Virus record (IMG/VR): IMGVR_UViG_3300010354_000152
Span: 1 to 45,615 of that record
Reading direction: 5' to 3' (one strand)
DNA from: a virus
DNA length: 45,615 bases
The notes under the pieces were generated by a model. That model did not search any database and was not told the DNA's origin. It saw nothing but the letters and a program-made list of their open reading frames with translations. Shown here piece after piece: positions 1 through 44,264 of the stretch. A program made the position numbers and the translations under genes. Position 1 is the stretch's first letter, and every line of letters begins with the position of its first letter.

Positions 1-3000
1 GCTTTTTATGATATGTTCAAAACTTCAAGAGGTTGGGAAACTTTAGCTTCTGGTTTCTTCATGGGTATGTTTGCTGGACCTATGAATAAGTCTGTAGAGA
101 TGTTATCTGTAGGATATGATAAATACTTTAATCCTGAGCAATATGCTGAGTATAAAAGAATAAGAGAAGACTACGGTAAAAGAATAGTGAATACACTATC
201 TAGTGTAGACATGAATGAATTCTTTAACTCTAGAATCTGGAACTATGGTGTTCAAGGTTCTATGAGTGATTTAAGATTATCTGATAGTGAGAAAGTAAGT
301 AGAGATGCTCAAGATCAAGCATTCATAACTCAGATGAACACAGTTCTTGAGAATGACATGATGAATCTTTTTGTAGAAAATCTAGAAGCTTACAAAGGAC
401 TTACTGCTGAAGAATTTGAAGAAGCATTTCCTAATGTACCACAAGGAGAAGGAGCTAAATATATTGCTAAACTAGATGAAACAATTGCTAGAGCAAAAAA
501 TCTAGAGAAGAAATACAACGCTAATAAAGAAAGATTTCCTGATCCCATTAGTGCAAAAGATCTTGAAGGCTTAGATCCATCATCTAAAGAATATCAAAAT
601 GCTATGCTTTTAAATGAAGCATGGAAAGTAGCCAGATATAATAGTATATTCTTTAGTGAAACATTTGAGAATGTTACAAAGAGGATGTCAAGTATACTAG
701 ATTCTGTAGCTTCACAAAAGCTATTAAAGAATGCATCTAGTAATGATATCACAGTATTATTTGATCCTAGGTTACTTGCTAATCAAGCAGATATACTCCG
801 TGATGAGATAGACATGATGTCTAAAACTGAAGGTACTAAACCTAAAGACTTACTAGAAAGAAAACAAAAGCTTGAAGCTCTAGATAATTATGATAAAGCT
901 GTAAATACTTACTTGTCATTTACTATGACAAAAGAAGCTATAGCTGAGAAGTTTATTAACCGTGCTAAGATGCAAGGTAAAGAACTGTCAGATGAGGAGC
1001 TAGATAAACTTGTAGAATCAGAATTAGGTAAGAGAGATGAAGCAAGTCAAATGGAGGCAGCTAAACAATTAGAGATTGCGTACAAAGACTATTTAAGAAC
1101 TCTTGCTGGTCAAACTGGAGACTATGTATTTGATGAACAAATAGATGACTCCTTCATAAAACTAATAGATTACTATAAGCTTAGTGATGAAGCTAAGGTT
1201 ATGAATAAGTATGCTAATCTATTAATGAATCCTGGTGGGTTTCTAGAACAAGTAGAGCAGAACCAGAAATGGATGAGTGACCTCTATAATAATAGAAAAG
1301 AGTACTACCAAGAAATGGTTAAAGAAGCTATGAAAGCAAAGGAGGCAAATGATCTTCTTAACTTCTTAGCATCTAGAAATATATATGTAAGCTTAGATGA
1401 CTTTAATAAATTCTTAGAAACAGGAATTCTACCAGAGGAGTTTTATAATGATACAAACAATACTGTAATAAAAAGATCTAATCCTGAATACATTGAGTTA
1501 GCTAGAGCATTTATAAAGTTTAATGAATTAAACAAACAAGTTATAAAAGCTCAATCTGCTGATGAAACTCTGAGAGAAACTCTTAAGAATCTTGATGAGA
1601 AAATGATGGATGAGATTAATGCTCTTGAAAAGTTTGAAACAAGAGATGAGCTTGGTCCTATACCTATGAAGAAAAAAGGTATAAGGATCTCTGATGTAAT
1701 GGATAATGTAGAAGATGGTCAATATGCTGATCTTATCTACATGGAAGGTACTCAAGAAACTCAGATTACTGTATATAGAGATGGTGATGTACTTAAGTAC
1801 AATGATAAAGAAGGAGAGGAAGTTGATCCTAAACTTAAAACTAGATTTATCTCAGGTGTAAAGTATGAGATAAACATGAAACCAAATGAAGCTGAAGTAG
1901 AAGCTATTAAAGAAAAGTACAAAGCTTTAAAAGAACTTAAGGTAGAAGAGGCCTTAGAAGAAAAAGAAAAAGAACAGTTTGATGAAGAGAAGTTTGTAGA
2001 GATAACTCCTAGTACACCTATTGAACAGTTTCCTGAAAATCTGTATAATGATTTATATCATTTATTCCAAGATTATATTGAAAGAACAAAAATAGATGTT
2101 CAGGAAGATGAGTTTGATGATAGACTAATTAACTTCATAAAAACTAATAGTCTAGCTGCTGAAAAAATAGCTGAGTATAATAAAAATAAAAAGTTAGAAA
2201 TAGCAACTGCTCCAACTGGAGAAGTCATTGTACCTACTATAATGACAAGAGAAGGTGAAGAAGTTTCTGTAGATGAGTTGCCTGAAGAAGAGGTAAGAGC
2301 TTATCTAAATACTTTTATTGCTGAACTAAAAGTTCTGGAATCAAAAGAAAAAATAGAACCAGAAGAGCAGAACAGATTATATCAACTAAAAAGAGTAGTA
2401 GATGATTTACAGAAGTATGTAGATAGTATAGACAAATCTGAGTTTACTGAGAAGCAGCTTGCTACTATTGAAGTACTAGAGCAAATAAAAGAAAAGAATA
2501 AAGAGCTAGTAAGAACTCCTAATGGGTATATAATAGATGATACTCTTCATAGAAGAGTAACTACTGTTATTCAAAATCTAGCATCTAAAGGATATCAGTA
2601 TACAGATATTAGTAAAGTACGTATTGCATTTAACTCTACTATAGGTAAATCTGGACTAACAGAATCTACAGTAAAAGAGTTCATAACAAAACTGAGAGAT
2701 GAAGTACCAAAAGGATTTAGTGAATACACATATACAGAGCTTCAAGATGAATTACTATCTATAGCAAAACAACAAGCAACAACTACACCTACTAAAGACA
2801 TAGATGCTAAAAAAGCTGAAATAAGTGCTGCTCAAAAAGAATTAAAAGCTTTAGATGAAGGTACGCTTGGATTTACATATAAAATACCACTTGGAACAAG
2901 TAGATGGACTAAGAAAGGAGATAAGGTTACTCTTGTAAAATCTCAACGGGATAAGTATAATAGAGGTAAGGAAAGTTTCGAAATAATTTTATCAAATGGT

Positions 3001-5631
3001 AAGAAATCTGGTGCTACTGTAGATTGGAGACAAAGACCTACATCAGGATTCTTAGGTTTAGATGAAATACCTTTTGAAGCAAGGTATTCAGAAGATCCAA
3101 GAGTATTAGTTGAAAAAATAAATAAATTAGTACAAGAACTAGAAGCTTTAGAAAAACCTACTGAAACTATAGAAACTAAGAAAGCTGATATAGAAAAAGA
3201 AATATTAGGTTCTTTTGCCGATACAATTGAAAGAGTTATAAAAGGTAAGGGTCCTAGTAATGGAAGAACTACAAAAACAGAATTAACAAGCAAAGTTAGT
3301 TCTGATGGTCAACTAATGGTTTTTAAACACAAAACTACTTTTACGGATGATGGTAGTACTGTAGGTACTGCAGGACTTTCAATGACTGTTCAAGAATTTA
3401 AAGAACAGTTTTATCCTATGCTTACAGCAGAAGAAATAGAAGATTTTGAAAATGCATTAGAAGCGTATGGGCAAGATAATAAAATATTTTTTAAAGAATT
3501 AAGAGTAGGTACCTCAAAAGCTATGGGTAAATTAAAAGGTCAGCTTAATCTTGATATAATGATAGGTATAGGGAATGACTATGGGTTTACTCTTACTAAG
3601 AGATTAAATGATGCAGAACTAGCTGCTTTAGAAGGAGATGTTAGTAATAAAGTTGAAATAGATAAATTAAATGCTGAAAGAAAAGAGAAGCTAGATCAAG
3701 TAGTTAGAAATCAGGGCTTATCAGGAAAAAATGGAAAAATAACAACAAAAGCACAAGCAGAAGAGCAAAACATTGTAACTGATGTAATGCAAGAAGAGTT
3801 TGATAAAATTAATGCTAAGTATAAAGAAGAACTTGATGCTTTAGAACAAGCACCTGCAAACCAAGTAGATAGAAAACCTGCAGCTAAACCTCAGTTACTT
3901 ACTAAAGATGAATTAAGAAAACTTGTTGAAAATCTAGTACAGGAAAAAACATATGAAGATTCTAGAGTAGCTGGTAACTATGTAGATAAAGCTATTAGAG
4001 ATTTCTTTGCTGGCAGAACTCCTGAGTTTAATGAAAACTATATTACTAAAGAAGCATATGATGCTTTATTTGGTGATCCTGCAGCAGTAGATGCACAAGG
4101 TAATAGAACAAGTGTTGGTTATTTAGAGCAAGCCAAACAAAGACTTCAAGAACAAGGACTGTATCTTTACTCAGAAGGACTTGTATTAAATGATTCTGAT
4201 GCTGCAGTAGCTGGAGAGATTGACCTTATAATGGTTGATAGAGAAGGTAAGGTATATATAGTGGATGTTAAAACAGGGGACTCTAGAAAATGGGGTAACT
4301 TTAATGTACCTAATAATGAGTTCTCCAAGAAAGAAGACTATGAGTTACAACAAACAACTTACTCAAATCTTCTATTTAACATGACCGGACTTGAGTCTTT
4401 AGTATCATTAATGCCTATTGAGATTAGTAAAGACCCAGAAACAGGAAAGATACTTACAGCGTCTGCACCAAAAGCTACAGGATTATTAAAACCTGATTCA
4501 TTCAGAATTCCATTAAGTAAACAAACTAAACCTTCTGTAACTACTAAAACTCTTACTGATGTACAGAAAGCTGAACTTAAAAGTTTAGGATTTACTGATG
4601 CTCAAATAGAACTATTAAAACAACCTGAAGTTGATAAACTACTAGATACTGAATTGAGATCTGATGTAATGATTGAAGATCTTAAGAAGAAGTATAAAAA
4701 TGCAGATCAAGTATTAGGTAAAACAATACAAGAAAGAGTAGATACTATTGTACCTAGAAAAGGTAAAGAAACATCAATTATTCAGACAGGTAGACCTGTA
4801 TCAGATGACACTGTAAAGAAACTAAAAAGACTTGGTTTCACAGATCAAATGATTGGTATAATGAGTGCTGAAGATATTGAGACAGCAAAGAAGATACGTA
4901 ATAAAGCTGATGCTAAATCTTTGATAGACAAGTACACTGAGTTACTACCTAATGAAGGTTCTGAAGGAGATCAAGCACCACCTAAGAATGCTGGTAATGC
5001 AAATCAAGAATCAAAAGAAGATATAGAGTTAAGACAATTTAGAAATGGCATAAGAAAATTCATATCAAAAATGGATCTTATTGCACTAGAAAAGTATGAA
5101 GCTGAGACAGTAGCAGATCTTATTAAGAATAAAAAAATATCTGCTGAATCTGCAATTGTTGCATCAGAAGAAATACAAGCAAGAAAAGAAGAACTTAAAG
5201 CAGGTCAACCATCTGAAGCTACACCAATTACTATTAAAAAAGGTGCTGAGTATATAGTAAAACGTACTATCTTTGAGACAAGAAATCCAAACAATATTTT
5301 TGCATCATCAGATGATACAGTAAGAGTAGTAAGTTCTACTGAAAATAAAGTAGTATTAAAGAATAATACGAACAATCAAAAGACTCTAAGCTTTGAAGAG
5401 TTCAATAAAATGCTTATATTAAAAGAAGACGTAATGCAACCTAGGACTGATATAAAAGAAACCTTAACACCAGATGAATCTTCTTTTGTTGAAGAGTCTA
5501 ATACTGCTGCAATTGATTTACTAGATAATCAAGCAAAAATGGCAGAGCTTCAAAAAGAAGCAGAAGACTCTAAGATAGAAGATTTAGAGGATGATTACTA
5601 TGATATTATTAATGACTGTCCAGTAAAATGA
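1..5631 (+). CDS. Giant virion-type protein, 5'-truncated, with PD-(D/E)XK nuclease domain
   Basis: The frame is open to base 1 (codons GCT TTT TAT GAT precede the ATG at 13) and that ATG has no leader, so the gene very probably starts outside the window. Residue numbers count from base 13. Most of the 1872 residues are charged and helical, with long Lys/Glu-rich coiled-coil-like stretches. At about 1300-1470 lies a RecB/Cas4-like PD-(D/E)XK nuclease domain: GEID (D1404), the DVKTG core (D1418, K1420) and a QxxxY motif (Q1446, Y1450). Two similar helical units with LGFTD follow at about 1517-1560 and 1597-1640. The N-terminal visible part is hydrophobic and aromatic. The TGA stop overlaps the next ATG (ATGA), so translation is coupled to the RNA polymerase protein. 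I infer a virion or ejected protein from its position; the nuclease call rests on motifs. Confidence 0.82.
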   Translation, partial: AFYDMFKTSRGWETLASGFFMGMFAGPMNKSVEMLSVGYDKYFNPEQYAEYKRIREDYGKRIVNTLSSVDMNEFFNSRIWNYGVQGSMSDLRLSDSEKVSRDAQDQAFITQMNTVLENDMMNLFVENLEAYKGLTAEEFEEAFPNVPQGEGAKYIAKLDETIARAKNLEKKYNANKERFPDPISAKDLEGLDPSSKEYQNAMLLNEAWKVARYNSIFFSETFENVTKRMSSILDSVASQKLLKNASSNDITVLFDPRLLANQADILRDEIDMMSKTEGTKPKDLLERKQKLEALDNYDKAVNTYLSFTMTKEAIAEKFINRAKMQGKELSDEELDKLVESELGKRDEASQMEAAKQLEIAYKDYLRTLAGQTGDYVFDEQIDDSFIKLIDYYKLSDEAKVMNKYANLLMNPGGFLEQVEQNQKWMSDLYNNRKEYYQEMVKEAMKAKEANDLLNFLASRNIYVSLDDFNKFLETGILPEEFYNDTNNTVIKRSNPEYIELARAFIKFNELNKQVIKAQSADETLRETLKNLDEKMMDEINALEKFETRDELGPIPMKKKGIRISDVMDNVEDGQYADLIYMEGTQETQITVYRDGDVLKYNDKEGEEVDPKLKTRFISGVKYEINMKPNEAEVEAIKEKYKALKELKVEEALEEKEKEQFDEEKFVEITPSTPIEQFPENLYNDLYHLFQDYIERTKIDVQEDEFDDRLINFIKTNSLAAEKIAEYNKNKKLEIATAPTGEVIVPTIMTREGEEVSVDELPEEEVRAYLNTFIAELKVLESKEKIEPEEQNRLYQLKRVVDDLQKYVDSIDKSEFTEKQLATIEVLEQIKEKNKELVRTPNGYIIDDTLHRRVTTVIQNLASKGYQYTDISKVRIAFNSTIGKSGLTESTVKEFITKLRDEVPKGFSEYTYTELQDELLSIAKQQATTTPTKDIDAKKAEISAAQKELKALDEGTLGFTYKIPLGTSRWTKKGDKVTLVKSQRDKYNRGKESFEIILSNGKKSGATVDWRQRPTSGFLGLDEIPFEARYSEDPRVLVEKINKLVQELEALEKPTETIETKKADIEKEILGSFADTIERVIKGKGPSNGRTTKTELTSKVSSDGQLMVFKHKTTFTDDGSTVGTAGLSMTVQEFKEQFYPMLTAEEIEDFENALEAYGQDNKIFFKELRVGTSKAMGKLKGQLNLDIMIGIGNDYGFTLTKRLNDAELAALEGDVSNKVEIDKLNAERKEKLDQVVRNQGLSGKNGKITTKAQAEEQNIVTDVMQEEFDKINAKYKEELDALEQAPANQVDRKPAAKPQLLTKDELRKLVENLVQEKTYEDSRVAGNYVDKAIRDFFAGRTPEFNENYITKEAYDALFGDPAAVDAQGNRTSVGYLEQAKQRLQEQGLYLYSEGLVLNDSDAAVAGEIDLIMVDREGKVYIVDVKTGDSRKWGNFNVPNNEFSKKEDYELQQTTYSNLLFNMTGLESLVSLMPIEISKDPETGKILTASAPKATGLLKPDSFRIPLSKQTKPSVTTKTLTDVQKAELKSLGFTDAQIELLKQPEVDKLLDTELRSDVMIEDLKKKYKNADQVLGKTIQERVDTIVPRKGKETSIIQTGRPVSDDTVKKLKRLGFTDQMIGIMSAEDIETAKKIRNKADAKSLIDKYTELLPNEGSEGDQAPPKNAGNANQESKEDIELRQFRNGIRKFISKMDLIALEKYEAETVADLIKNKKISAESAIVASEEIQARKEELKAGQPSEATPITIKKGAEYIVKRTIFETRNPNNIFASSDDTVRVVSSTENKVVLKNNTNNQKTLSFEEFNKMLILKEDVMQPRTDIKETLTPDESSFVEESNTAAIDLLDNQAKMAELQKEAEDSKIEDLEDDYYDIINDCPVK

Positions 5632-8600: not shown

Positions 8601-11600
8601 GATTACACTCCTTTAATAGATAATGTCAGATGGGATCTTCTAAACAGAGGACCTCAAAGAGTTGACAATAGAAAAGAACAAGCCTTAAGTAAAGCAGATG
8701 CAGACCTAGCTGTAAGTAGTACAGACTCTATAATGTCAGAATACATAGATGAGATTCATGACATGAGAAAAGATGCTGGTGGTACTAGTTTAAAATCAGG
8801 TAGCATAGCTTTGTTTTCAAGTCAAGTAGGAGAAGATGGTATAACTAATAAAGAAAGACTTTATGAATATGCTAAAGATGCATTTGAAGAGCAGCTTGAT
8901 TATTGGAAAAAGGAGTTAGGAACTATTTCTAAAGCTAAGTTTAATACATTAAAAACTGTAGAGGAGTTAGAGAAAAATGCCATAGGCATTATGAAAAGTG
9001 ATAAAGGTAGAGATAAATACTTTTTTCTAACCTCTCAAGTAGAAAACTTTGAAAACCTCAATCCTGAATTAAGAAGAGGACAGAGAGTAAAAGGTCAAGC
9101 ATACTTTAATATAGATATAGTTGGAGACTTCTATTCTCATAAGAGTATTAAGATAGGTGATGAGCCTGTAGATATTGTACTTGTATCAGATGTAAGAGAT
9201 GCACAGATACAGTATGATAATTATATAAAAGGTGGAGCTCAAGAATTTACTTCTTTTGAACAAAAAGATCAACCTGAATTAACTCCACTTACTCCAGAAA
9301 AACAAGCTATACAAAATAAGGTAAGACTTATTGAAAAGGTATTAGAAAACTGGGGTGATGCAAATACAGGTTTTGTTAAGTACCATATGGAAAACAGTGA
9401 CTTTGATATTGTCAAAGAAACATTTGTTGAAGTAGAATATGATGAAGAAGGTATAGAGCAAGATGAAACAAGCCCTGAAGATGGTAAAGGTTCTGATGAT
9501 ACCTTTAATGATAAGACAGGTAAAATTTCATTAGAGAAACTGGCTAATAAAGAAACTATCTATCTACTTAAAAGCTTATTCAAGATTGATAGGAAGACAG
9601 GTAAAACTATCAAAGACCCACTTGGATTTAAGCAACGTGCTGATTATAGAGAAGTATGGAACTCTGTTGTTAGAGCAATGGGTGGTGAAAAAGATAGAGT
9701 TAAAGCTTATCAAAAACTAAAAGCTGCTGTAGCTCATACTCCTGAGTTACAACAACTTATAGAGAAAAAGTTTCCTGCTCCTGAAGGAATTACAAATCCA
9801 TATGAGTTTAATATAAGTGGATCATTCTGGCAGACTTTTTCTAGACCAAGAGTTCCTTATATACAGCTTACTGCATATATGAATGTAGTTGAAGATCCTT
9901 TTACTGGTCGTCAGAGAATAGGTTCTATAAATACTGAAGTTACTACTGCATCAGTTGAGGTAAGCTCCACTCTTAGAAAGTTTGAGAACAAGTATAAAAC
10001 AGATCTCAATAATAACTTTGTTGTTAGAACAGTTAACAATGAAACTCTTTTAAAAGTACAGGATGTAGTAAAAGAATTTGCTAATAAGAAAACAGCAGAA
10101 CTCAATACTGCTAGCTTATTTAATTTTGCAAGATCAATTGGTTTCTACCTGGATGATTTAATCTCAATAAAGCAAGAGCTTAAAAAGAATAAAGATAAAT
10201 ACGGTTTAGAGTATCTATATGATGTTGTAAAAGAGTTTGGTAAGATAGAAGCTGCTGGTGTAAATGCATCAGAACAACAGTCTAAGAAACTACTAGAGTT
10301 TAAAAGAAATCCTATAAAGGTATTATCTAGTGAGATTCCTGCAGGTATACTTGGTGGACCTTTTACTAACAAGTCAGTAAACATGACTTCTAATGTTAAA
10401 AGATTAGCTGAGTTACAGATTGAACTGGGTGTGGATTCTTCTAACTATTCTGTATTTAGTGCTGATAGAAATAAGGTATTTGAGTTTATTAATGACCACT
10501 CTATAAGTAGAATGGTTGATGCTATGAATTCAGCAGAAAAATTACCTGAGTTATTTACAGGTACTAAGTTCCAGTATATGAACTTCTTAGACTGGAATAA
10601 GAATACCTTTACAAAGAAGTCACAGATAATCAGATCTTTATTTGACTTTACTGATCCAGAGTATGCTAAGAGACAAGGTAGAACTCTTAAATTATTTAAT
10701 GACTCTGGTACTCAAGCTATTATAAATCAGAATGGTAAAACAGAATTCTTTACAGGTACAAATACCACAGCTCAAGATATAAACGGTAAGTTTATTCAAG
10801 AGCTTCACATGTTACTTAAAGGTGGAGTACAAGAGTTTATCAGACATGCCTCAAAGAAAACTGCACAAGGAGTAAAGATTGATGGTGGTATAATAGGTGG
10901 TATAGAAAAGGGAATAGACCCTAATCTATATGTAGATATCAATATGTTTGGACCAGAAGGTAATGGTGTAAACTATGCTTTCAATCAGATAATACTACCT
11001 TATATAACAGTAGAGTTTGATAGAATTCAAAAGTTCAAAGCAAACAAAGAGAAGTACCTAAACTACTTAGGCTATAATACTAGAGTTGGTGGTACTAAAC
11101 AGAATCCTATTTACTCAGGAGAGGTCTTTACTGCATTTGATAATGTCCTTACTAAATCTGTAAAAGAAAAATTATATAATTTACCTCAAGGAACAGATCT
11201 TATTACCTACTTAAAAACTAATCCTAACTTAAGATTAGAGATTCAAAGAGATGTAGAAGCTTACTTTAAACAGCAGACTCTAGAGAATATTGATATGCTT
11301 GAGCAAAACAAGTTTATTGATAAAACTCTTTTTGAGAAAATTGGAATACCTATTCCAGCAAATGAAACAAAAGAACAAAGACTAACAAGAGAAAAAGAAG
11401 GTGAAGCAATTCTTGTTAAAGCTTATACATATAACTCTTGGATTCACAACTTTGAAACAATTCATCTCTTTTATGGTGACATGGCTCAGTTCAATCACAT
11501 AAAAGAAGAATTACATAAAAGGAATACAGGTTCTACATCTGGTGGTATTAAGTTCCTAGCAGATGAGTATGCACAGAGTTTCATTAATGAAAGCTTTAAC

Positions 11601-14600: not shown

Positions 14601-17600
14601 TACCAAGATGTAGTTGACTCTTCTAAAGTAGATAATGATTTACCAGTTGCTATTAAAGAAAGATCTATACTTAGTTCATTCTATGCAAGTGATTTAACAA
14701 AAGACTTAGTAACTCCTGTATTTCCATTAAGACTAAACCCTGTAATAAATGACTTTATTTCAGATCGGTTAAGGTTTGATAGTCAAAGAATTAAGAAAAA
14801 ATTTGGAGCAGGAGTAGATGGTCAAGAGAAGTTTACATCTAATTATAACAATGGAGTAGTAAACTATATATTCCAAAATTACCTTTCTAACTACATAGAT
14901 GATAAGGGTAAAGCTGTTATTCTTCCTGATGTATATAGAGAGATGACAGTAATCAATGCTCCATTTAAACAAGGAGATAATGAGTACTTCATACATGTAG
15001 ATAAGAATGCTAAAACTATCAACGTAGATCTTGAGGAGCTAAAAGATATTTATGACAATAAGCTTTTCTTAAGGAGTAATAATGAAGAAGGTAGTTATAA
15101 CGAGCTTGGATTATACAGTTTTATTGATGCTAATAACCCATTTGATACATTTGAATCTTTTGTAAGATATACTCTTGAAGAAGCTCATCTTAGAAGTATC
15201 TATACACCTGAGCAATTAAAAGGTGATAAGACATATGGTAGATATGAAAGCATAGTTAAAAAGTCTAAGAAAGAGATTGATCAATCAGAGATAGATGCTA
15301 AAGCATTTAATGCATATATAGCCCAAAGAGCATTAATGAATGTGTATAACCCTAATGCTATAATGAAGACACCTAACTTCTCATACTCTGATCAAATCAT
15401 GAGTGTTATAGAAGATTACCAAGGTACTTCATTACTTGATACGTATCCTGTACTTAATCAACTTGAGATAGCTGAGTTCCCAGCAAAAAGAGGAATAAAG
15501 CTTATTACACTGAAAGATAAAAGTTTAGTAGACGGAGATGTAGCATTTGGTTACTATCAACAACTAAGACAACTTGGTAACATAAATATTAGAAAAGTAA
15601 ATGACCCTGTAGAAAACAAAAGAATAAGTGATCTATTCAAAGTCTTTACTAACATGATGATATATCAACATGGTATAGGTTATAGTCCTTATGGTTTCCC
15701 TAAAGTATTAGATCCAGATCCATTTGTAGAAGTAATGAGAAATGCTTCTGCTAGATTCATGGAAGGTAATCTTAATCTAAGAACATTAAGTAGTATATAT
15801 GTAACTGTAACATCAAATAAACCAGATGAGAAGTACTTTAAAAGTTATGTAGAAAAAGTTGAAGACTTTAACTTTGGTACTTCAGAAATAGATAATAGTT
15901 CTGAGAATCCAGATGAGATTGAAATCAAACCTACTCAAGCTATATCTAGTGTTAAACCTACAATAGATTTATCAAGAGAATGGAAAGGTGATTTAGAGTC
16001 AAGGCCTGTATATACTGCAGAAGGAGTTAATACTATGAGAACCTCTGCTGCTAAACCTAATGAACATTTCGGTAATCCTTTTAGTGAAGCTGGTTATGGA
16101 AATACTATAAAAGTTTCTAGTATTGGTGCAGCTGTTAGAATGTATAAAGATTGGTTATTAAATAATGCTGTAACTGAATCTGAAATTGTAAAAGGAAGTA
16201 TCAAAGACTTGGATAAGTTTGATAATCAAAGAACTTGGATACTTGATCAAATTAATCAAGGTAAACTAGACGGTGCTACTCTATTGTATGCAGGTAAGTT
16301 AGCTACTAGAGGGCAAGGTATGCATCCTACAGCATTAGCAGAAGTAGTTGAACAACTTAGATCTACTACTCAAGCTCCTGTACCTACTACAAATAATCCA
16401 GCAGAATATACTAATCACTCTGGTGGAGCATTAGGTGCTGATAGCATGTTTGATACAATTGGTAGGGAATATGGTCAAACCAATCATAAACATTACTATT
16501 ATGGAAATAAAACTCCTAAAGGAAATATTCTACTAACAGAAGAACAGGTTAAAGAGGGTATAGTTGAAATGAACAAAGCTGCTCAAATATTGGGAAGAAA
16601 ACCTAGTAAACAAAGTACTATTAACCTTCTTGCAAGAAATTGGTTTCAAGTTAAAAATAGTACTCAAATAGTAGCAATTGCCCCTATAGATCAATCAATG
16701 AAATTTGTAGAGGGTGGTACTGGTTGGGCTGTTGCAATGGGTCAAGCTAATAATAAAGAAATAAATGTATTTAATTTAAAAGACAATACATGGTATAAAT
16801 GGAATGGAACAACTTTTATAAAATCCACAGTTCCTGTTTTAGCTAAAAACTTTGCTGGTATTGGTAGCAGACAAGATAATGGTAAAATGACTCCAGCATC
16901 TGTACAAGCTATTAGAGATGTATATGAAAATACATTTAAAGCTACTACTCAACCAGTAGAACCATCTAAAGGTGGTACTATAAGTTCTACTATCTATGAA
17001 CTTAATCCAAATATTACTGAAGAAGAAATTAAAAAGATATATGACAACTATGTTGCTTTAATGAATCTTAGAAGAGAAGGTAAGCAGATAAGTTATGAAA
17101 CTTTCAAAAGCTTACTTGATTCTTATCAGGTATATAAATACAAAGACACATATATATTTGGTCAGTATGATAATAGAAATGCTGTATTTATAACAAGACT
17201 TAACAGTTCTCCAACAAGCAAAGAATTACTTGCTGAAGCTATACCTAATCTTGTAAGTAAAGGTTTAGACTTTATGTCCTTTGTACCAAAAGATTATGCT
17301 GATAAACTTGTAAGAAGTGGGTATACTTCATCTACTAAATCCTATGATTACAATTTTAAGGGAGAAAAGATGAAAAAGTTTGCTGTTGCATCTAACCCTA
17401 TAATATTCCAAAAAGTATTCAATAAAAAGTTTGATGAGTTAACCTCAGAAGAAATAGAAGAATACACTGACTCTATAGATCTAAAGTATAAACCAGTTGA
17501 GATTAATGCAGACTTAATTAGTGAAGCAGGCAATGATCTTTCTAAAATTTTAGAAACTTATCTTAATCAATTTGGTATCCGTGTAGATGACATAAATGTC

Positions 17601-18845
17601 ATTAAAGAAAAAATGGGTATTGATGAAGTAGGTTTTGCAGACTTACTATCTAAGGTAGCATATGTAAAAGATAAAAAAGATTTGCCGCCAATAGCAGGAG
17701 AGTTTATTGCATACATGATGCAGTATAATCCTTTGGTACAGAGCATTATAAATGACCTTATTCAAACAAATGCTATATTAATTCCTAAAGATAGCTACAC
17801 ATTTAATGAGCAAGGTAATAAAGTCTATAACTATAAGTCTTTAGATAAAACTGAATTCTTTAAATACATAGGTAACCTAATATCAGAAGACTTACAAAAT
17901 AAACTTGAGGGTAATTACAACAAGTCCTTGATTCAAAAAATTAAAGATTTGATCAAAACCTTCTTTGATTATATTACAAAAACTCAAGTTGATAGGATTA
18001 ATACTAATATTGGTATTATATCTAATAATATACTTCAGCAAAATAAAAAGATGATCACTGCATCTTTATATAAACCTGGAGCATTTGGTCAACCTACTCA
18101 ACAAGTAGATATAGAAAGTGCTTTAAAGCAAGATGAGTTTGGAGCGTCAATAATATACTCTCTTGCAAAAGAAGGATTTATTCTTACAGGTAGCACAGCT
18201 TTATCTGAGCAAGGTACAATTTTAAGACCTGATGAAAATCCTTTGCATGATATTGACTGGGTAAGTCCTTTTAATAGAAAAGAAACTGAGGAAAAATTCT
18301 TAAGTGTATATCCTGATGCTATTAAAGTAAGAGATATCTATGGTGAAGGTTATATAACTGATAGTTATCTTATTGCACCTGATGGATATTCTATAGCCAA
18401 TTATAAAGCTGATGACTTTAATGGTAAAATAATAATTAACTCATATGATATTGTTGATAAAAATGGTATTGTAGTAGGTACATACAGATTGGAGAAACAA
18501 GAGAACAACAATCAAATGCAGGAAGTTGTTAGGGGAATTGAAGGTAAAGTTATTGACTTCTTTAGTTATGAAAATTATGGTGAGTTTAATAAAGGTGAAG
18601 CATTTCCTTATACTTCTAAACAAGGTACTGTAATTAAGCTTGCAAATTGGAAAGATATATTTAACGCTAAGCTTGCTTGGGCTAGATATAAAGATATCTG
18701 GGACTACAACAGATTTATTCCAAATGAAAACATAGTAAAAATTACAGGTAACCAACCAGGTGCAAGACTATCATCTTATGATAATCAGAATGCACCAGAA
18801 GGACTTCCTCCTATAGACAGAACATCTCCAACATGTGGTGGGTAA
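5628..18845 (+). CDS. 4405-residue multidomain virion RNA polymerase polyprotein of crAss-like type
   Basis: This is a single uninterrupted frame. An HESWH zincin motif is at 877-881, with downstream acidic residues E918 or E921 as a possible third ligand. The RNA polymerase core lies around 2370-2530: a conserved-looking ARIP element is followed by DFDVD, with metal-binding D2512, D2514 and D2516. This matches the DxDxD loop of YonO-like and crAss-like single-chain polymerases with two double-psi beta-barrels. Residues about 3455-3580 resemble DUF4326 (FGNPF and a C-terminal LYAGK helix region). Residues about 3590-3775 resemble a cpYpsA-type SLOG domain (SGGALGAD, then AGIGSR at the end). 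Residues about 4160-4390 look like a nucleotidyltransferase (GST at 4188, D4208xD4210, D4310). Known crAss-like virion RNAPs are ejected and transcribe early genes; that role here is inferred. The start overlaps the upstream stop (ATGA). Confidence 0.93.
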   Translation: MKITCALSPSQLEKLYKLVYKNIITAVEKGDKTFDPEAYMQDLFNRTAERSSEDNAAKFIQQVPLILASIQATPKVFRSGITFPKDFDLRELDARYTDVEKGIGEILNDFGSSNKDDLRLKSLTSDRNQFEPVQGEDEKQEIPSAPRLTSFNPNTGTLIEFQPTKTSEKEKDVLFQESLNQNRSTIYTTINRLRDAVDPTTQLVTDLVYQNRTLKLKAVPLESIDPDLLDTTTLKAIERSQIMKAKKQTQANVVQTDNIVALVIIDDKTGEYVKFDETGDITENVEGKIVYQFLRPIAQTEDGKYVVTDFFTKERRIAKPEVVAERSYFDEMGITKEEYIKQVDKEQQEDFKKIEELRRRALAGEDIRLSIVNVTDGVAPGLTGIRVNINRINENYYGDLSWDKIFKTVEILKKEQNGVDEGRAVVQIKGNKYTLDRIDIPKDKSRELSYVLTNPNIPFETRLRFYQQFFGDKMGDTVVSHKIAYNPDTKEFKISLYKETFAQNKNRIDPKPIDISNAALLKRTPEQLEALRFNIEKRINQGKSSVAGTFYAAKMGYSSDLFKGKLPFFTYNVDTEEFTPASYVDFITSLNPQVDTSLQGTESFNAAIVFNMPSAIESMIEKTNEELAKEKTDPELSAKQNKDDLVSYLKSVGDAETVIVNSVNITENKKGSTLTFESPSNGSLITVGLDFEAIDKNLIPSVNDVITLGMTTVETDAIYVEDVIEVFSNENSIGYVRETTTPQERLERETVYRQRKQEILAQRLAEEKEKLNPTNVTQPSDTPTKTGKKTKIDPNKFAGLNRSNLLDNGVTEAQLAAAEKWWTTHPMNKVISLEHLTNIVNSNAFARFAVAAKNLNDPTLLGKISLFKGGSLVDIYHESWHAFSQLYLTREEKIKLYEEVRRTTPKLADATYLEIEEELAEDFRSYAKNQSVKKNSPVRNSIFRIILNLIRTLFGKKPASQEASNNLSDNTVVKELYDKLFFAGQNPNLLNDYTPLIDNVRWDLLNRGPQRVDNRKEQALSKADADLAVSSTDSIMSEYIDEIHDMRKDAGGTSLKSGSIALFSSQVGEDGITNKERLYEYAKDAFEEQLDYWKKELGTISKAKFNTLKTVEELEKNAIGIMKSDKGRDKYFFLTSQVENFENLNPELRRGQRVKGQAYFNIDIVGDFYSHKSIKIGDEPVDIVLVSDVRDAQIQYDNYIKGGAQEFTSFEQKDQPELTPLTPEKQAIQNKVRLIEKVLENWGDANTGFVKYHMENSDFDIVKETFVEVEYDEEGIEQDETSPEDGKGSDDTFNDKTGKISLEKLANKETIYLLKSLFKIDRKTGKTIKDPLGFKQRADYREVWNSVVRAMGGEKDRVKAYQKLKAAVAHTPELQQLIEKKFPAPEGITNPYEFNISGSFWQTFSRPRVPYIQLTAYMNVVEDPFTGRQRIGSINTEVTTASVEVSSTLRKFENKYKTDLNNNFVVRTVNNETLLKVQDVVKEFANKKTAELNTASLFNFARSIGFYLDDLISIKQELKKNKDKYGLEYLYDVVKEFGKIEAAGVNASEQQSKKLLEFKRNPIKVLSSEIPAGILGGPFTNKSVNMTSNVKRLAELQIELGVDSSNYSVFSADRNKVFEFINDHSISRMVDAMNSAEKLPELFTGTKFQYMNFLDWNKNTFTKKSQIIRSLFDFTDPEYAKRQGRTLKLFNDSGTQAIINQNGKTEFFTGTNTTAQDINGKFIQELHMLLKGGVQEFIRHASKKTAQGVKIDGGIIGGIEKGIDPNLYVDINMFGPEGNGVNYAFNQIILPYITVEFDRIQKFKANKEKYLNYLGYNTRVGGTKQNPIYSGEVFTAFDNVLTKSVKEKLYNLPQGTDLITYLKTNPNLRLEIQRDVEAYFKQQTLENIDMLEQNKFIDKTLFEKIGIPIPANETKEQRLTREKEGEAILVKAYTYNSWIHNFETIHLFYGDMAQFNHIKEELHKRNTGSTSGGIKFLADEYAQSFINESFNINTYGSKLAKQLNNKAYNSFYFDGTLNTAVIQDIERKSKYIDEIEEALREDYTESLKGFNYSKAQVKEIVDKRIKEEMKAYKKMTEGDGAGYITLDAYRTLKKLSNEWTDDVQEKIYQDIINGRPVKAKDVKEFFPVYKLQYFGNIDTGKDNLPVTAMHKFALTPLIPSVFKGTELEKLHKEMLRNNIQYVTFQSGSKVSGITSDRKADNIYKDDTKKELKDVMEFTPNRIYVEYLKDVTKVNNKYKDTITYPTQLRGLLLDGIYNEGDIIDEVFKKPAEDYKGAVDKYSQLLRIELLNEIGYSYDEKTGKYTGNLGDFLEMVQKELDKRDIPEQLIKFIGVNLDKSLRTDLSLHLEADSIEKILLSIIQKRLIKQKVKGEAFIQIPSSMTNGAWGSKFELATDDDIKKYMGSNTLPFYKRNKGGKTSAMKVAVALQGDFLNLLKLKYKDQVIGDINTLNEAIKDDEWLNKHREAVTLAGARIPIQNLNSMEFAEVYHFLDPTAGNMIIVPTEIVAKAGSDFDVDKIFFSLPHIDVKGNFINTELTNEELEKKIKAAKKPKEKAAVKALIKKQKQALENNLISTTRGILEVDKNYSNLVRPNATYLMQDMVEFLEDYVVDYSRYNTMHDEGIRMFTDNDGKQRRVISPTRTLEAKYNLQKHQVNMVGKDTLGIVALENKQHPIWKSIMAKMPTSYKEAVWDYSLGKYVEIPEIDKEMILRLDHNKVGDNISLSSMYSKDGDRISDLISHMMNGLLDVEKDPWVFFIQANLEQIPVINYLLQAGVPKKQAIFFAAQPAVREYAKAQRRLKSTFAAFGSLTPVNEAVIPSQAAKEVYEKYFASSGLGEAARDMRLQQVFDNFKDKTVIINYSVQGKDLKYKGTVAKFEQAYKNYNQNDKNKSKIFISDISEPETYRILYQPSTNPTASSNIYYSSMLVNGKKDFSEEELYDNIKNNKFDLGSFLHFLEIEQQIKGIQAAKRQANPDTKLVKTAFQINKQEIAYQDVVDSSKVDNDLPVAIKERSILSSFYASDLTKDLVTPVFPLRLNPVINDFISDRLRFDSQRIKKKFGAGVDGQEKFTSNYNNGVVNYIFQNYLSNYIDDKGKAVILPDVYREMTVINAPFKQGDNEYFIHVDKNAKTINVDLEELKDIYDNKLFLRSNNEEGSYNELGLYSFIDANNPFDTFESFVRYTLEEAHLRSIYTPEQLKGDKTYGRYESIVKKSKKEIDQSEIDAKAFNAYIAQRALMNVYNPNAIMKTPNFSYSDQIMSVIEDYQGTSLLDTYPVLNQLEIAEFPAKRGIKLITLKDKSLVDGDVAFGYYQQLRQLGNINIRKVNDPVENKRISDLFKVFTNMMIYQHGIGYSPYGFPKVLDPDPFVEVMRNASARFMEGNLNLRTLSSIYVTVTSNKPDEKYFKSYVEKVEDFNFGTSEIDNSSENPDEIEIKPTQAISSVKPTIDLSREWKGDLESRPVYTAEGVNTMRTSAAKPNEHFGNPFSEAGYGNTIKVSSIGAAVRMYKDWLLNNAVTESEIVKGSIKDLDKFDNQRTWILDQINQGKLDGATLLYAGKLATRGQGMHPTALAEVVEQLRSTTQAPVPTTNNPAEYTNHSGGALGADSMFDTIGREYGQTNHKHYYYGNKTPKGNILLTEEQVKEGIVEMNKAAQILGRKPSKQSTINLLARNWFQVKNSTQIVAIAPIDQSMKFVEGGTGWAVAMGQANNKEINVFNLKDNTWYKWNGTTFIKSTVPVLAKNFAGIGSRQDNGKMTPASVQAIRDVYENTFKATTQPVEPSKGGTISSTIYELNPNITEEEIKKIYDNYVALMNLRREGKQISYETFKSLLDSYQVYKYKDTYIFGQYDNRNAVFITRLNSSPTSKELLAEAIPNLVSKGLDFMSFVPKDYADKLVRSGYTSSTKSYDYNFKGEKMKKFAVASNPIIFQKVFNKKFDELTSEEIEEYTDSIDLKYKPVEINADLISEAGNDLSKILETYLNQFGIRVDDINVIKEKMGIDEVGFADLLSKVAYVKDKKDLPPIAGEFIAYMMQYNPLVQSIINDLIQTNAILIPKDSYTFNEQGNKVYNYKSLDKTEFFKYIGNLISEDLQNKLEGNYNKSLIQKIKDLIKTFFDYITKTQVDRINTNIGIISNNILQQNKKMITASLYKPGAFGQPTQQVDIESALKQDEFGASIIYSLAKEGFILTGSTALSEQGTILRPDENPLHDIDWVSPFNRKETEEKFLSVYPDAIKVRDIYGEGYITDSYLIAPDGYSIANYKADDFNGKIIINSYDIVDKNGIVVGTYRLEKQENNNQMQEVVRGIEGKVIDFFSYENYGEFNKGEAFPYTSKQGTVIKLANWKDIFNAKLAWARYKDIWDYNRFIPNENIVKITGNQPGARLSSYDNQNAPEGLPPIDRTSPTCGG

Positions 18846-18875
18846 TTAGTATCTTAGTATCATAATCTTTAAGAA

Positions 18876-21800: not shown

Positions 21801-24737
21801 GGACAACCTAATGGTATTGAGTTTACTCCTGATCAAATCAAAAGAATAAAAACTCTAGAAGAAGAGATAGCAGAAATTGATGCTATGTATGATAAGAAGA
21901 GTGGATTAGCATTTGAAGATTTAGACAGATACAGAAAGTATGAGTATAAGCTTGCTAATAACAAGACTCTTACTGAATCAGAAGAAATAGATTATCAAAA
22001 TCTTATACAAGCTAAGAATGAGTTTGGTTTAAGTCCTATTGAAAAAGCTGCTCTAGATGCAAGGTGGAATGAGTATAGAGGTTTAGCTCAAAAACAACCT
22101 ACTGAATATTACTTAGAAGCATTTGAATATGCATTAGGTGGGTTAGATGTTGAAGCTATAACAATAGAGAATGCAGATGAATGGATTAATGGGCCTCAAG
22201 CTATTAAAGCATTATCTGAAAATCCTAAGTTTAAGGATTGGTTCTTGAGAAATCACTATGTAAAAGAGGTGTTTGACAGTTCTATTCCAGGCATGGTTCC
22301 AAAGTATTTTAGAACTGCAGTCTGGAGTGTATCAAGACCTACTTCAGAAGATAGTTATGAGAAAACTATATTAGTACACCCTATTACAGGAGAAGATTTA
22401 GTTATTCCAGGAGTTCCTGCAGGTAAGTATTCATATCAAAAAATAAAAGATGAGTACCTCACAATTCCTAAAGGTGCTGATAAAAAGCAATATGTAGGAA
22501 AAGTTATAGACAACATGGGTAATTTCTTACCAAGAGAATACAACCCTAATGATCCTGACTCTGCATATGATAAAGCTTTTATGAATGAAGAATATGAAGC
22601 TTTAGATAAGAATAGCTCACAGTTTAAACTTCTTGAAGAGATTAAAAAGATATTCTTAGAAATTCAAGAGAATACAACTAACTCAACTAAGCTTTATTTA
22701 GACTTGCCTAGGATGAGGATGATATCTAATTTAGAGTATGTACAATCTGGTCAAGGTAGGGAAGACTTTAGAACTAAGTTAGAGGGAGTCACATCTGTAA
22801 TAAAGGCAATGGCAGGTAGAGATAGAGCTGCTGATGCTGCAGAAGATGGTTTTAATGCTGATGTAGAAAGACAGTATCTAGTAACTACTGATATGCAAGG
22901 TAAACCCCTTAGCAGAATTCCTGTTAGAGGTTTATATAAACTTAAAACAAGTGAAGCTTCACAAGATGTATTAAAAGTATTATATGATTACTTATACTCT
23001 ATAAATGAAAGCTCAGCACTCAGAGAATCAGAACCTTTAGTAAATGCAGTTAGTGATGTATTGAATGATCCAGCTAATGCTATTAAAAGAATGGATGCTA
23101 TTAGTAAGCAAATTAAAAAGGCTACTGGTAAAGTTCAATTTTTACCTAAAGGTAAAGACAATAAAAGAGCTCAAGCTATTGATTACCTTATAGACAAAGT
23201 TTACTATGGTCAAGCAAATGACAGTCTTACTGAAGATAATCCGATGCTTGCTAAATTTAGTAACTTCTTGATGAGAGCTGCAAGTAGATCTTTTATTGCA
23301 TTGGATATACCTTCTGCTCTTAAAAACAGATATGGTATGATTTTCCAAAGCCTTGTTGAAAGTGCTGGTGGAAAGTTTGTTACTCCAATGACATTAGCTA
23401 AAGGTAGAGCAAAGTCATTTACTACAATAGTTGAACTAAGTGGAAAAGGTATTTATGAAAAAGGGCCTAAGAGTTTAGACCTACAAATCATGGAGTACTT
23501 TGATCCTGTAACAGGTAAGACTAAAAAAGATTTTGGTAAATCATCTTCTAGAACTTTCATGAAGGATATGATGGACTTCAGTTTTCTATATGATTTTAGA
23601 AGACTAGCTGAAGTTGAAGCATCTCTACAAGTATTCTGGGGAATGATGTACCATAAAAAGGTAACTCAGATTCAAGCAGATGGTACTGAAAAACAAATAG
23701 ACTATGCTGAAGCATTTGAGTTAGATCCAGACACAAAGCAAATAAAACTTAAGGAAGGTATAGATCCTGAGTTTGCACCTTATGATGTTGATCATACATT
23801 TACAGAAGGAGATACTATGAGTAGTATAGCTAAGAAGTATGGTATTACTGAGGAAGAGTTAGCAGCTAGAATAAGAAGAGATGATCTTTCAAATGTAGAA
23901 CCTGGAACAGTATTAGAAATTGGCAGAAGTACTAAGTTCTTAGATTTCCAACAACAAGTAACTAGTGTAGGTAAGATGCTTAATGGACAGGTAAACTCTT
24001 TAGATAGTCCACAAGCAGATAAGTTTCTACTCTATAGATTTTTTACCTTCTATAAGAAGTTTGCCACAGGTATGTTCTTAAATAGATTCCAGACAGACTT
24101 ATCTAAGGATAATAGATGGGGTCATGTATATAACTGGGATTTAGGAACTACATCAAAAGGTTATTACATCTCAGGATTCCAAGCTATCTATAAGACTTTT
24201 AGAGATTGGGGAGCTTACTATCCTATCATGACAGATGAAGAAAAAATAGCTATTAGAAAGATTGTTACAGAAATTGCTGGAATAATTGTTCTAGGTCTAG
24301 CTATAGGAATGTTGTTTGGATATGATAAAGGAGATGAAGACAGATTTGAAAAAATGAGGTTGCGTAATGAGAAGTATGGAGAACTAGGTGGTAAACTAAG
24401 TAATCACTTGTTGTATCAATTAATGATGGTAAAACAAGAGAATGAAGCCTTTGTACCAATCCTAGGTCTGCCTGAAATGGTTAAGTATGGAGATAAAACA
24501 TCAATTGTATTTGGACCTACTATTAACTTGTACGTTAAAATACTAGGTGACCTATGGAACACAGCAACAGGAAGTCCTAAAGCTTTGTATAAGAATGATG
24601 CGGGACCATATCCTTGGCAAGAAAAAGATAGCTACAAATTATGGAATCACCTATTTGCATTGTATGGTATTAAAGGTAAGACATATGATCCTATCCATGC
24701 AATTAAATCAGCTGAGGCATTCCAGAATCTGAGATAA
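18876..24737 (+). CDS. Giant virion-type protein with zincin motif, LysM repeat and C-terminal membrane segment
   Basis: 1953 residues, starting 30 bases after the polymerase gene without a clear Shine-Dalgarno sequence, as is usual for Bacteroidota phages. An HEYAH motif (H197, E198, H201) follows a GAIL strand, the arrangement of a zincin metallopeptidase active helix. The middle is long, helical and Lys/Glu-rich. A LysM-like unit runs from about H1640 to 1688 (FTEGDTMSSIAKKYGI, then VEPGTVLEI) and would bind peptidoglycan. A strongly hydrophobic stretch at about 1796-1815 can span a membrane. Together these suggest a protein that is ejected with the DNA and works at the cell envelope, but that is inference. 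It is the last gene of the + strand block and is followed by a terminator. The peptidase could be inactive; I could not settle the third zinc ligand. Confidence 0.88.
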   Translation: MPCRIQIEEHIREKAEYAMEPYRRRDYITMRIAASNVNKNFGYPVVKVSQWEADIYEVDINVPEPLIEEYYQNELRKEEAEARQSQIEDAARAGEIYTDKYLYDDKELEIKVSREQGLDDYEQIMWDLKQDRVMQVAKLLGQRFQKVFGIPHEVITVAQARELLKNTNVPYTGGASFYYGGIIYIVEGNMTPGAILHEYAHPFIQAIEKDNPKLFERLFYNLATYDVGQQIIQEIESKYPELEGDTQRFKQEVIVTALERAAVDKLSEIEKNDPEFRNFLSQLLYSIKQIIRKLVDKVNLKELSPNTTMDELADMFLDPQFVIEAPKLSEDSFVYFKKNLSDFTTALQDIKYDALIDTINRVHQEVKYEIAAIKAAPFRLTKELAGKDGIKLLRGVEGSLRNFQTYEKDPSKADVQEVADAMLDHTEEFNKRALALINSMNEMEVFAENIEKVLDEMKDNKEHFTSVGISKIMYFKDFIGRQSEFIEEIKEISELKKTNEFYKKLNSVDNTLQNATRQIKRLQREFVTDFFGKSTNLMTTNLEEGIKERITKIFKADGLSDDIINEFYNQVINTPNGKKLSVKDANYPLNPKRAQRLINDVNEYFAKRLGKEQIDDFIEGRRDDLGFFSAWITPYANINDPLVGSFASFVKRELKKAENKSLKQANDIAQRTFQLLKDVGYNPNDTGQLGKMLLFTDKVGTLNDKGEYEEFEVRSFMDKFKNWRYERGKLQHEFDEARESKDKEKIRQAYEALIEFDEKYMHRRYKKEYYDLQKIWKDGARVIDPFTKQEITVSKEEAFQAWMERQAALDKLSVVKNVHFTELEDVEGFSMADAANAEYQRLFDVYNPDSTRKTGEELRKTLLRRYYRAQSRKFYDYPVSMDRVQQDLDTFILKLAGEGITYENNREKFDEKLEKFKKVNFRTAYTDKYYTDKRRILSEIRAINSRAKANQDILDKREDLSKQLFELVNLVLDQNGQPNGIEFTPDQIKRIKTLEEEIAEIDAMYDKKSGLAFEDLDRYRKYEYKLANNKTLTESEEIDYQNLIQAKNEFGLSPIEKAALDARWNEYRGLAQKQPTEYYLEAFEYALGGLDVEAITIENADEWINGPQAIKALSENPKFKDWFLRNHYVKEVFDSSIPGMVPKYFRTAVWSVSRPTSEDSYEKTILVHPITGEDLVIPGVPAGKYSYQKIKDEYLTIPKGADKKQYVGKVIDNMGNFLPREYNPNDPDSAYDKAFMNEEYEALDKNSSQFKLLEEIKKIFLEIQENTTNSTKLYLDLPRMRMISNLEYVQSGQGREDFRTKLEGVTSVIKAMAGRDRAADAAEDGFNADVERQYLVTTDMQGKPLSRIPVRGLYKLKTSEASQDVLKVLYDYLYSINESSALRESEPLVNAVSDVLNDPANAIKRMDAISKQIKKATGKVQFLPKGKDNKRAQAIDYLIDKVYYGQANDSLTEDNPMLAKFSNFLMRAASRSFIALDIPSALKNRYGMIFQSLVESAGGKFVTPMTLAKGRAKSFTTIVELSGKGIYEKGPKSLDLQIMEYFDPVTGKTKKDFGKSSSRTFMKDMMDFSFLYDFRRLAEVEASLQVFWGMMYHKKVTQIQADGTEKQIDYAEAFELDPDTKQIKLKEGIDPEFAPYDVDHTFTEGDTMSSIAKKYGITEEELAARIRRDDLSNVEPGTVLEIGRSTKFLDFQQQVTSVGKMLNGQVNSLDSPQADKFLLYRFFTFYKKFATGMFLNRFQTDLSKDNRWGHVYNWDLGTTSKGYYISGFQAIYKTFRDWGAYYPIMTDEEKIAIRKIVTEIAGIIVLGLAIGMLFGYDKGDEDRFEKMRLRNEKYGELGGKLSNHLLYQLMMVKQENEAFVPILGLPEMVKYGDKTSIVFGPTINLYVKILGDLWNTATGSPKALYKNDAGPYPWQEKDSYKLWNHLFALYGIKGKTYDPIHAIKSAEAFQNLR

Positions 24738-44166: not shown

Positions 44167-44190
44167 ATTATTTGATTTTGGGATTAATAG

Positions 44191-44264
44191 TAGTCCCAAT
44201 AGGACTCGAACCTATAACCTACACATTAGAAGTGTGTTGCTCTATCCAATTGAGCTATGGGACT
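44191..44264 (-). tRNA. tRNA-Arg (anticodon UCU)
   Basis: The minus strand folds into a full cloverleaf: acceptor AGTCCCA/TGGGACT, D arm GCTC/GAGC, anticodon stem ACACA/TGTGT with loop CTTCTAA (anticodon TCT), T arm ATAGG/CCTAT with loop TTCGAGT. The discriminator is A and no CCA is encoded. It reads AGA, by far the commonest Arg codon in the genes here. Its first two bases are the last two of the TAG stop of the Myb-like gene. Confidence 0.95.

Follow-up and report, generated by a model that had tools for sequence, protein, structure and literature searches.

Exchanged, linker-bounded enzyme modules behind the predicted virion RNA polymerase of a crAss-like phage

Introduction

The window studied here is a whole IMG/VR record of 45,615 bases, and more than half of it is taken up by three giant genes. 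These are best read as the virion RNA polymerase block of a crAss-like phage in which enzyme modules, joined by linkers and exchanged among phages, are probably carried into the cell on the polymerase chain itself. The polymerase block and the polyvalent proteins were known before; the striking part is an exchanged, linker-bounded zone of enzymes on a two-barrel crAss-type virion RNA polymerase.

No viruses of the human gut are more abundant than crAss-like phages, which are present in many environmental metagenomes too. Little is known of how they overcome the defences of the host within the first minutes. If the injected polymerase carries exchangeable enzymes, the zone behind it would be a candidate list of counter-defence or host-takeover effectors that can be read between the linkers. 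The zone also explains misleading GenBank names of virion RNA polymerase (vRNAP) genes (‘exonuclease V’, ‘DprA-like’) and helps to explain the wide size range of crAss-like polymerases. In earlier work large multidomain proteins, some with a PD-(D/E)XK domain, were reported (PMC7886860); a description of linker-bounded module exchange in the crAss-type virion RNA polymerase was not found in open-access papers, to which the search was confined.

Results and Discussion

Layout and identity of the three giant genes

A first-pass annotation of the window had described three giant genes on one strand within positions 13-24737, and all its coordinates proved right. The plus strand holds open frames of 1876, 4405 and 1953 codons, named P0001 (1..5631), P0002 (5628..18845) and P0003 (18876..24737), the first two joined by an ATGA overlap and the last two separated by a 30-base gap. 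Given this length and their conservation in dozens of relatives, they are not chance frames. An assembly artefact was ruled out, as the same modules recur in many independent contigs, and so were introns or stop recoding, as the frames are open in the standard code; repeats inside the window were unremarkable. The ATG at position 13, where the described block begins, is not the true start of the first gene but lies inside it. In a near relative, G001 (IMGVR_UViG_3300043774_000178, 114,090 bases), whose giant proteins are 80-88% identical to those of the window, the homologue starts earlier: it has 2382 aa, and residue 1 of the window aligns at its residue 564, so that by this alignment the complete P0001 gene would encode about 2440 aa, of which about 560 N-terminal residues are missing at the contig end. 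What the window contains of this gene, P0001, is thus its 3' part, with an open 5' end.

Sequence comparison supports the identification of the three genes as the virion RNA polymerase and cargo block of a crAss-like phage (Crassvirales). Such a block is an already known hallmark of the order and not a discovery (PMC7886860, PMC10136315); the first-pass annotation recognised a real block, but missed both this hallmark and the exchanged zone behind the polymerase. P0002 consists of an N-terminal region, a zincin motif, a two-barrel-type virion RNA polymerase and a C-terminal module zone. Its polymerase core (8805..15848, +; aa ~1060-3407), already proposed as an RNA polymerase from the letters, was identified by a profile of aa 778-3407 with eight relatives, which matched 6VR4, the virion RNA polymerase of phi14:2, with E=1.9e-38; this was its only PDB match, and the catalytic region was covered. 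Among reference crAss-like phages the core matched phi14:2 gp66, crAss001 gp50 (2e-30), cr118_1 (3e-74), cr108_1, cr109_1 and cr273_1. The catalytic motif DFDVD lies at 13161..13175 (+; aa 2512-2516), with G-D-D-D-K invariant in 9/9 relatives. A direct Pfam scan of P0002 returned nothing, and homologues and structure were needed.

P0003 is a homologue of crAss001 gp49 and phi14:2 gp65 (C-terminal profile, E=1e-40 and 2e-25, respectively), and the nuclease segment of P0001 matched crAss001 gp47 (E=3e-22), while its main body gave no match to phi14:2 gp67. With tblastn, whole P0001 and P0003 found almost nothing among the named phages, and profiles of relatives were needed. The region around the P0002 zincin motif matched the end of crAss001 gp47 (2e-6), so gene borders have shifted. 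The arrangement is that of phi14:2 gp65-gp67 and crAss001 gp47/gp49/gp50, three giant proteins beside the structural genes that converge on an opposed replication block, and homology to these phages was detected for the polymerase core, the P0003 C-terminus and the nuclease domain. P0002 differs from its counterparts in ~1060 extra N-terminal residues including the zincin motif, found at the gp47 end in crAss001, and in a module zone of ~1000 residues, which the solved and mass-spectrometry-tested Steigviridae polymerases do not have: the chains of crAss001 gp50 and phi14:2 gp66 end with the polymerase. Another variant is a single ORF of 6385 aa (L095:7374-26528) with a P0002-like start and >3000 aa beyond the polymerase core, which may fuse P0002-like and P0003-like parts.

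Mass spectrometry detects crAss001 gp47, gp49 and gp50 in virions, where they were assigned to the capsid cargo zone (PMC10172136), and phi14:2 gp65-gp67 carry an annotation based on mass spectrometry. The phi14:2 polymerase was reported both in virions and as active in early transcription, that of crAss001 for its presence in virions (PMC7886860, PMC10172136). Since parts of all three proteins match the virion-detected crAss001 gp47/gp50/gp49 and phi14:2 gp65/gp66, their co-packaging is well supported by homology; ejection is the published model.

Nuclease, zincin motifs and further domains

The nuclease that had been assigned to the first protein is a PD-(D/E)XK domain (EID...DVK) at 3901..4293 (+) of P0001; it matched Pfam PF12705 with E=1.2e-4, just above the cut-off of that family, and a PHROG exonuclease with 6.8e-7, is conserved in 40-45/50 relatives and, as stated above, has its match in crAss001. 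P0001 also contains a variable zone (2739..3873, +) that is replaced in G001: at residues 951-1250 only 0-2/50 relatives align, and both flanks are conserved.

Two HExxH peptidase motifs had been noticed, and in both P0002 and P0003 the motif is conserved together with a downstream glutamate. In P0002 (8256..8393, +; HESWH at aa 877, EEELAED at aa 916) HExxH and the downstream EExLAE are invariant in 9/9 and in 19/19 relatives, and the strict pattern occurs in 46/68 ORFs, some of the others having it partial or differently spaced. An AlphaFold model of P0002 aa 1-1130 (pLDDT 68, poor around the motif) showed no clear resemblance to a known fold, either for the N-terminal region or for the zincin. 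In P0003 (19464..19631, +; HEYAHP at aa 197 with E252) the HExxHP and E252 are kept in 26/26 long-form relatives; this long form has ~1950 aa, and about half of the relatives have a short form of ~1100 aa from which the zincin region is absent.

These motifs bear on the label ‘polyprotein’ that the block had been given. The zincins might cut the long chains inside the capsid or the host and thereby free modules and polymerase to work separately; two conserved HExxH motifs would fit such a role, and zincin processing was proposed for polyvalent proteins (PMC5512222). Against this stand the absence of the P0003 zincin region from the short forms, the P0002 modelling, which did not confirm a zincin fold, and the lack of any evidence of cleavage. 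We regard processing as unlikely, and the label is unsupported.

The LysM domain and membrane segment proposed for P0003 were both recovered. A LysM-like domain (23793..23927, +; PF01476, E=1.1e-5) was found in 24/53 relatives, and a hydrophobic, membrane-like segment, IVTEIAGIIVLGLAIGMLF (24261..24317, +; aa 1796-1814, mean hydropathy 2.38), has an equivalent in 49/53.

The module zone behind the polymerase

From aa 3408 to its end at aa 4405, P0002 forms the C-terminal module zone (15849..18842, +). Of 489 core relatives the best 80 were taken, and coverage was counted in 50-aa blocks over 67 non-redundant ones. Up to aa 3400 mostly 49-67 of these 67 aligned, with one dip to 34; after aa 3400 coverage fell from 54-60 to 24, then 15 and finally 1-6. 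Among relatives the zones behind the polymerase measure 72 to 3240 aa (median 679), and a few of them are cut off by the end of the contig. Pfam searches of 58 zones identified 2OG-Fe(II) oxygenase (15), SF1 helicase (6), NADAR (5), cpYpsA (5) and ART-PolyVal (4) and, more rarely, zeta toxin/kinase (2) and RNase H (1). These enzyme families also match PHROG and exist as single phage genes. Zones of this kind occur in gut phages as well: in cr118_1, a member of the Suoliviridae, a helicase occupies aa 4438-4909 of a 4946-aa RNA polymerase protein annotated as ‘exonuclease V’, and cr109_1 has module B (see below) at aa 4067-4226. In GenBank two gut crAss-like vRNAP genes (L118:11382-26222, L120:5035-18021) are named for their passenger domains, as ‘exonuclease V’ and ‘DprA-like DNA recombination-mediator protein’.

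Three parts of the zone could be delimited in the window. Module A (15928..16370, +; ~135 aa) is 83-85% identical in DNA to L016, L017 and L019 and absent from G001; a likeness to DUF4326 seen by eye was dropped, as no search supported that family. Module B (16366..16955, +) matched PHROG 768 ‘DprA-like’ with E=6.9e-11, and a model of P0002 aa 3425-4405 (Foldseek/VIA), with pLDDT mostly >90 in module B, gave Z 12.2 to 3imk with 142 of 158 residues aligned. On this model module B is predicted to have the fold of a circularly permuted YpsA-like (cpYpsA) SLOG domain, of which we take 3imk to be the type. PF12694 was matched by other zones; searched singly against Pfam, modules A and B returned nothing, module B having no PF12694 match either, and a PDB profile search of A and B together was likewise empty. 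The third part (18117..18689, +; aa ~4164-4354, GSTALS ... DIDW at aa 4188-4211) reached VIA Z 8.3-9.5 to MenT1, MenT3 and TglT and a probability of 0.91 to 4ok0, and is predicted from these models to be a MenT/TglT-like nucleotidyltransferase fold with a GS...DxD motif. The ‘nucleotide-handling’ domains claimed from the letters thus correspond to the modelled SLOG and MenT-like folds, and of the fold matches anticipated for the giant proteins those of module B and the MenT-like domain were obtained, and that of the P0002 zincin was not clear.

The block had also been likened to polyvalent proteins (PMC5512222), and rightly so: its giant chains combine zincin motifs with a Pol-beta-type nucleotidyltransferase and, in relatives, with ART-PolyVal. 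Disparate domains in one chain, by which polyvalent proteins are recognised, are found in P0002 (RNA polymerase, cpYpsA-SLOG, MenT-like nucleotidyltransferase, zincin motif) and, in relatives, as ART-PolyVal, NADAR, helicase and oxygenase. Shared with the polyvalent proteins (Iyer et al. 2017, PMC5512222) are many unrelated enzyme domains per chain delivered with DNA and, as common elements, zincin, Pol-beta nucleotidyltransferase, ADP-ribosyltransferase and fusion to a virion RNA polymerase. The polymerase-bearing members in that survey are N4-like; it makes no mention of crAss, NADAR or SLOG, and its passages considered here report no shared linker DNA. The N4-like virion RNA polymerase resembles P0002 as a giant, ejected polymerase with a zincin-type peptidase and some variable extra domains (PMC5512222), but belongs to an unrelated single-subunit family, and linker-bounded module exchange is not described for it in those passages. 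Polymorphic toxin systems (PMC3482391) are similar in recombining C-terminal effector domains behind a constant delivery part, whereas here the carrier is a phage polymerase and several modules stand in tandem.

Modules and polymerase have separate histories

G001 lacks modules A and B: its match to the window, 82-83% identical in the flanking DNA, is interrupted exactly between 15923 and 16945, and ~20 bases in a T/Q/P-rich linker stand in their place. In six other phages (L016, L017, L019, L020, L045, L070) the DNA match to the window covers only module A, at 74-89% identity, and its borders lie within ~20 bases of one another. Distant phages share closely similar modules: L016 and the window are 20% identical in the core and 88% in A, L017 and the window 40% and 87%, and L028 and L029 22% in the core and 94% in B. 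The opposite pattern was found for L017-L098 (core 83%, A 42%), L060-L070 (core 60%, A 31%) and L084-L097 (core 68%, B 45%). The Spearman correlation of module with core identity was 0.27 for A and -0.12 for B. On the tree of module A the AU test rejected placing L086 (the same contig as L017) together with L098 (p=1.8e-5) and placing the L070 group together (p=3.1e-6), p-values that are optimistic, as the groups were picked from outlying pairs; in the core tree L086 and L098 have support 100, the L070 group (with L103 and L076) only 88. Module order is A-B in the window and B-A in L017/L086, module A is a separate ORF in L029, and a 135-aa module in the P0001 zone of L053 recurs with 74% identity in L044, there in the zone of P0002.

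An ordinary crAss-like polymerase block, whose zone is fast-diverging polymerase sequence and whose modules are remnants of an ancestral tail, would be consistent with giant crAss-like RNA polymerases of up to ~6000 aa and the rapid evolution described for them (PMC10136315, PMC7886860), and with the occurrence of module A in several lineages. It is nevertheless very improbable, because modules are more alike than the polymerase in distant phages and less alike in near ones, co-descent was rejected for module A, module order is permuted, modules stand in other giant ORFs, and the zones hold known enzyme families rather than polymerase sequence. Almost certainly, then, distantly related crAss-like phages have exchanged modules, which have also been gained, lost and put in a new order.

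Linker DNA at the module borders

The peptide TQ[PS]ST[SNG][VI] occurs in 22 copies in the 62,295 aa of the zones and not once in the remaining 299,857 aa of the same ORFs. The commonest form of its DNA, the 21 nt ACTCAAYCWTCTACTAGTGTT, was found in 65 IMG/VR stretches with up to five copies each, and 53/65 of these pieces bear another crAss giant-protein marker. The 21-mer stands in the frame of TQ[PS]STSV at 83/83 sites, and each of the 18 spacings is divisible by 3. Clustered by sequence, the downstream segments form 33 groups, with oxygenases and a cpYpsA+ART pair among them. Cellular genomes, searched with one genome for each of 84,980 species, contained no copy. In a first set, 18/18 TQ[PS]STSV sites share six codons, for which codon usage gives a chance of ~0.009 each; among conserved heptapeptides of the core, used as control, the commonest 21-mer was common to a median of 20% of loci and at most to 50%. 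The linker DNA is therefore conserved across synonymous sites, with codon identity far above the core controls. A chance linker was ruled out by frame, absence from cellular genomes and codon identity; the sites are not independent, and the DNA was copied.

The window does not contain the 21-mer, even when 3 mismatches are allowed. It has diverged versions of the linker, and each of the three borders of modules A and B coincides with an ACTCAA: T/Q/P linker DNA lies at the 5' border of module A (15930..15940, +), between A and B (16365..16375, +) and at the 3' border of B (16944..16954, +). The last ~50 bp of B (16904-16954) match L023 and L076 at 94-96% DNA identity, although the B modules of these two phages are otherwise far more diverged; conserved module ends of this kind may be recombination arms.

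Similar linker DNA at the module borders would allow homologous recombination to join different modules in frame, a mechanism that seems fairly likely. Modules might instead have been joined by illegitimate recombination or copied from standalone phage genes, the linkers being flexible spacers under protein-level selection and their DNA identity a result of codon preference or recent common origin. That such enzyme families occur as single phage genes (PHROG matches), that T/Q/P/S linkers suit unfolding for ejection and that the window's own linkers are diverged all agree with this account; the six codons shared by 18/18 sites, against a median of only 20% for core heptapeptides, and the presence of the same linker beside many unrelated modules do not, and it appears rather doubtful. 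Conserved linker DNA could also have been carried along with the modules and not be the crossover point.

Delivery and possible roles of the modules

By homology, the three proteins would be packaged and ejected with the genome, and the polymerase would start early transcription. Its C-terminal enzyme modules, joined by T/Q/P/S-rich linkers, would enter the cell as part of that polymerase and act within the first minutes, possibly on nucleotides, NAD/ADP-ribose marks, tRNA or DNA, and plausibly, as far as predicted activities go, in counter-defence or host takeover. Flexible linkers of this composition would suit the partial unfolding that was proposed for ejection (PMC10172136). Delivery of the modules in the virion is quite likely by analogy with virion homologues whose chains have no zone (crAss001 gp50, phi14:2 gp66). 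A more far-reaching proposal, to which we give even chances, is that Crassvirales use a standard linker, most often 21 nt encoding TQ(P/S)STSV, as an in-frame recombination adaptor by which early enzymes from a common pool can be attached, in whatever order, to the injected RNA polymerase and other giant proteins, forming a modular counter-defence platform shared by the community.

Lineage and remainder of the window

Giant multidomain transcription proteins with DxDxD that converge on a replication block, a mark of Crassvirales, are present in the window: its opposite strand encodes a primase, DnaB, an AAA ATPase, UDG and a second PD-(D/E)XK nuclease in the same layout as in phi14:2 and crAss001. 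The crAss-like TerL, portal and major capsid protein (MCP) lie outside the fragment, and were identified in G001 (PHROG 6681, 1.7e-61; PHROG 6547, 5.1e-93; PHROG 11589, 3.6e-19), where many of the portal matches are crAss-like phages. The portal nearest to that of G001 (L013:13856-16603) is from the cyanophage Leptolyngbya phage Lbo-JY46 (33.5%) and the next from the epsilon phage csAssE-Sib (28%); identity to the remaining crAss-like phages is only ~23%. The lineage is related to the named crAss-like families and apparently does not belong to any of them. One major capsid gene is split in two between the ends of G001 (L013:17977-19090, L008:2-622), and the contig is therefore probably a circularly permuted complete genome.

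On the minus strand of the window a 664-aa protein (26588-28582), for which Pfam gave no match, shows by eye the motifs of a family B DNA polymerase (DVVSFYPN, KIILNSTYGLSNDE, QNTDGLE). Further along the same strand, neighbouring genes for an AAA ATPase and a VWA/metallopeptidase (DUF2201) form a MoxR-VWA-like pair (31796-34266), and a tRNA-Arg (TCT) gene lies at 44190-44264.
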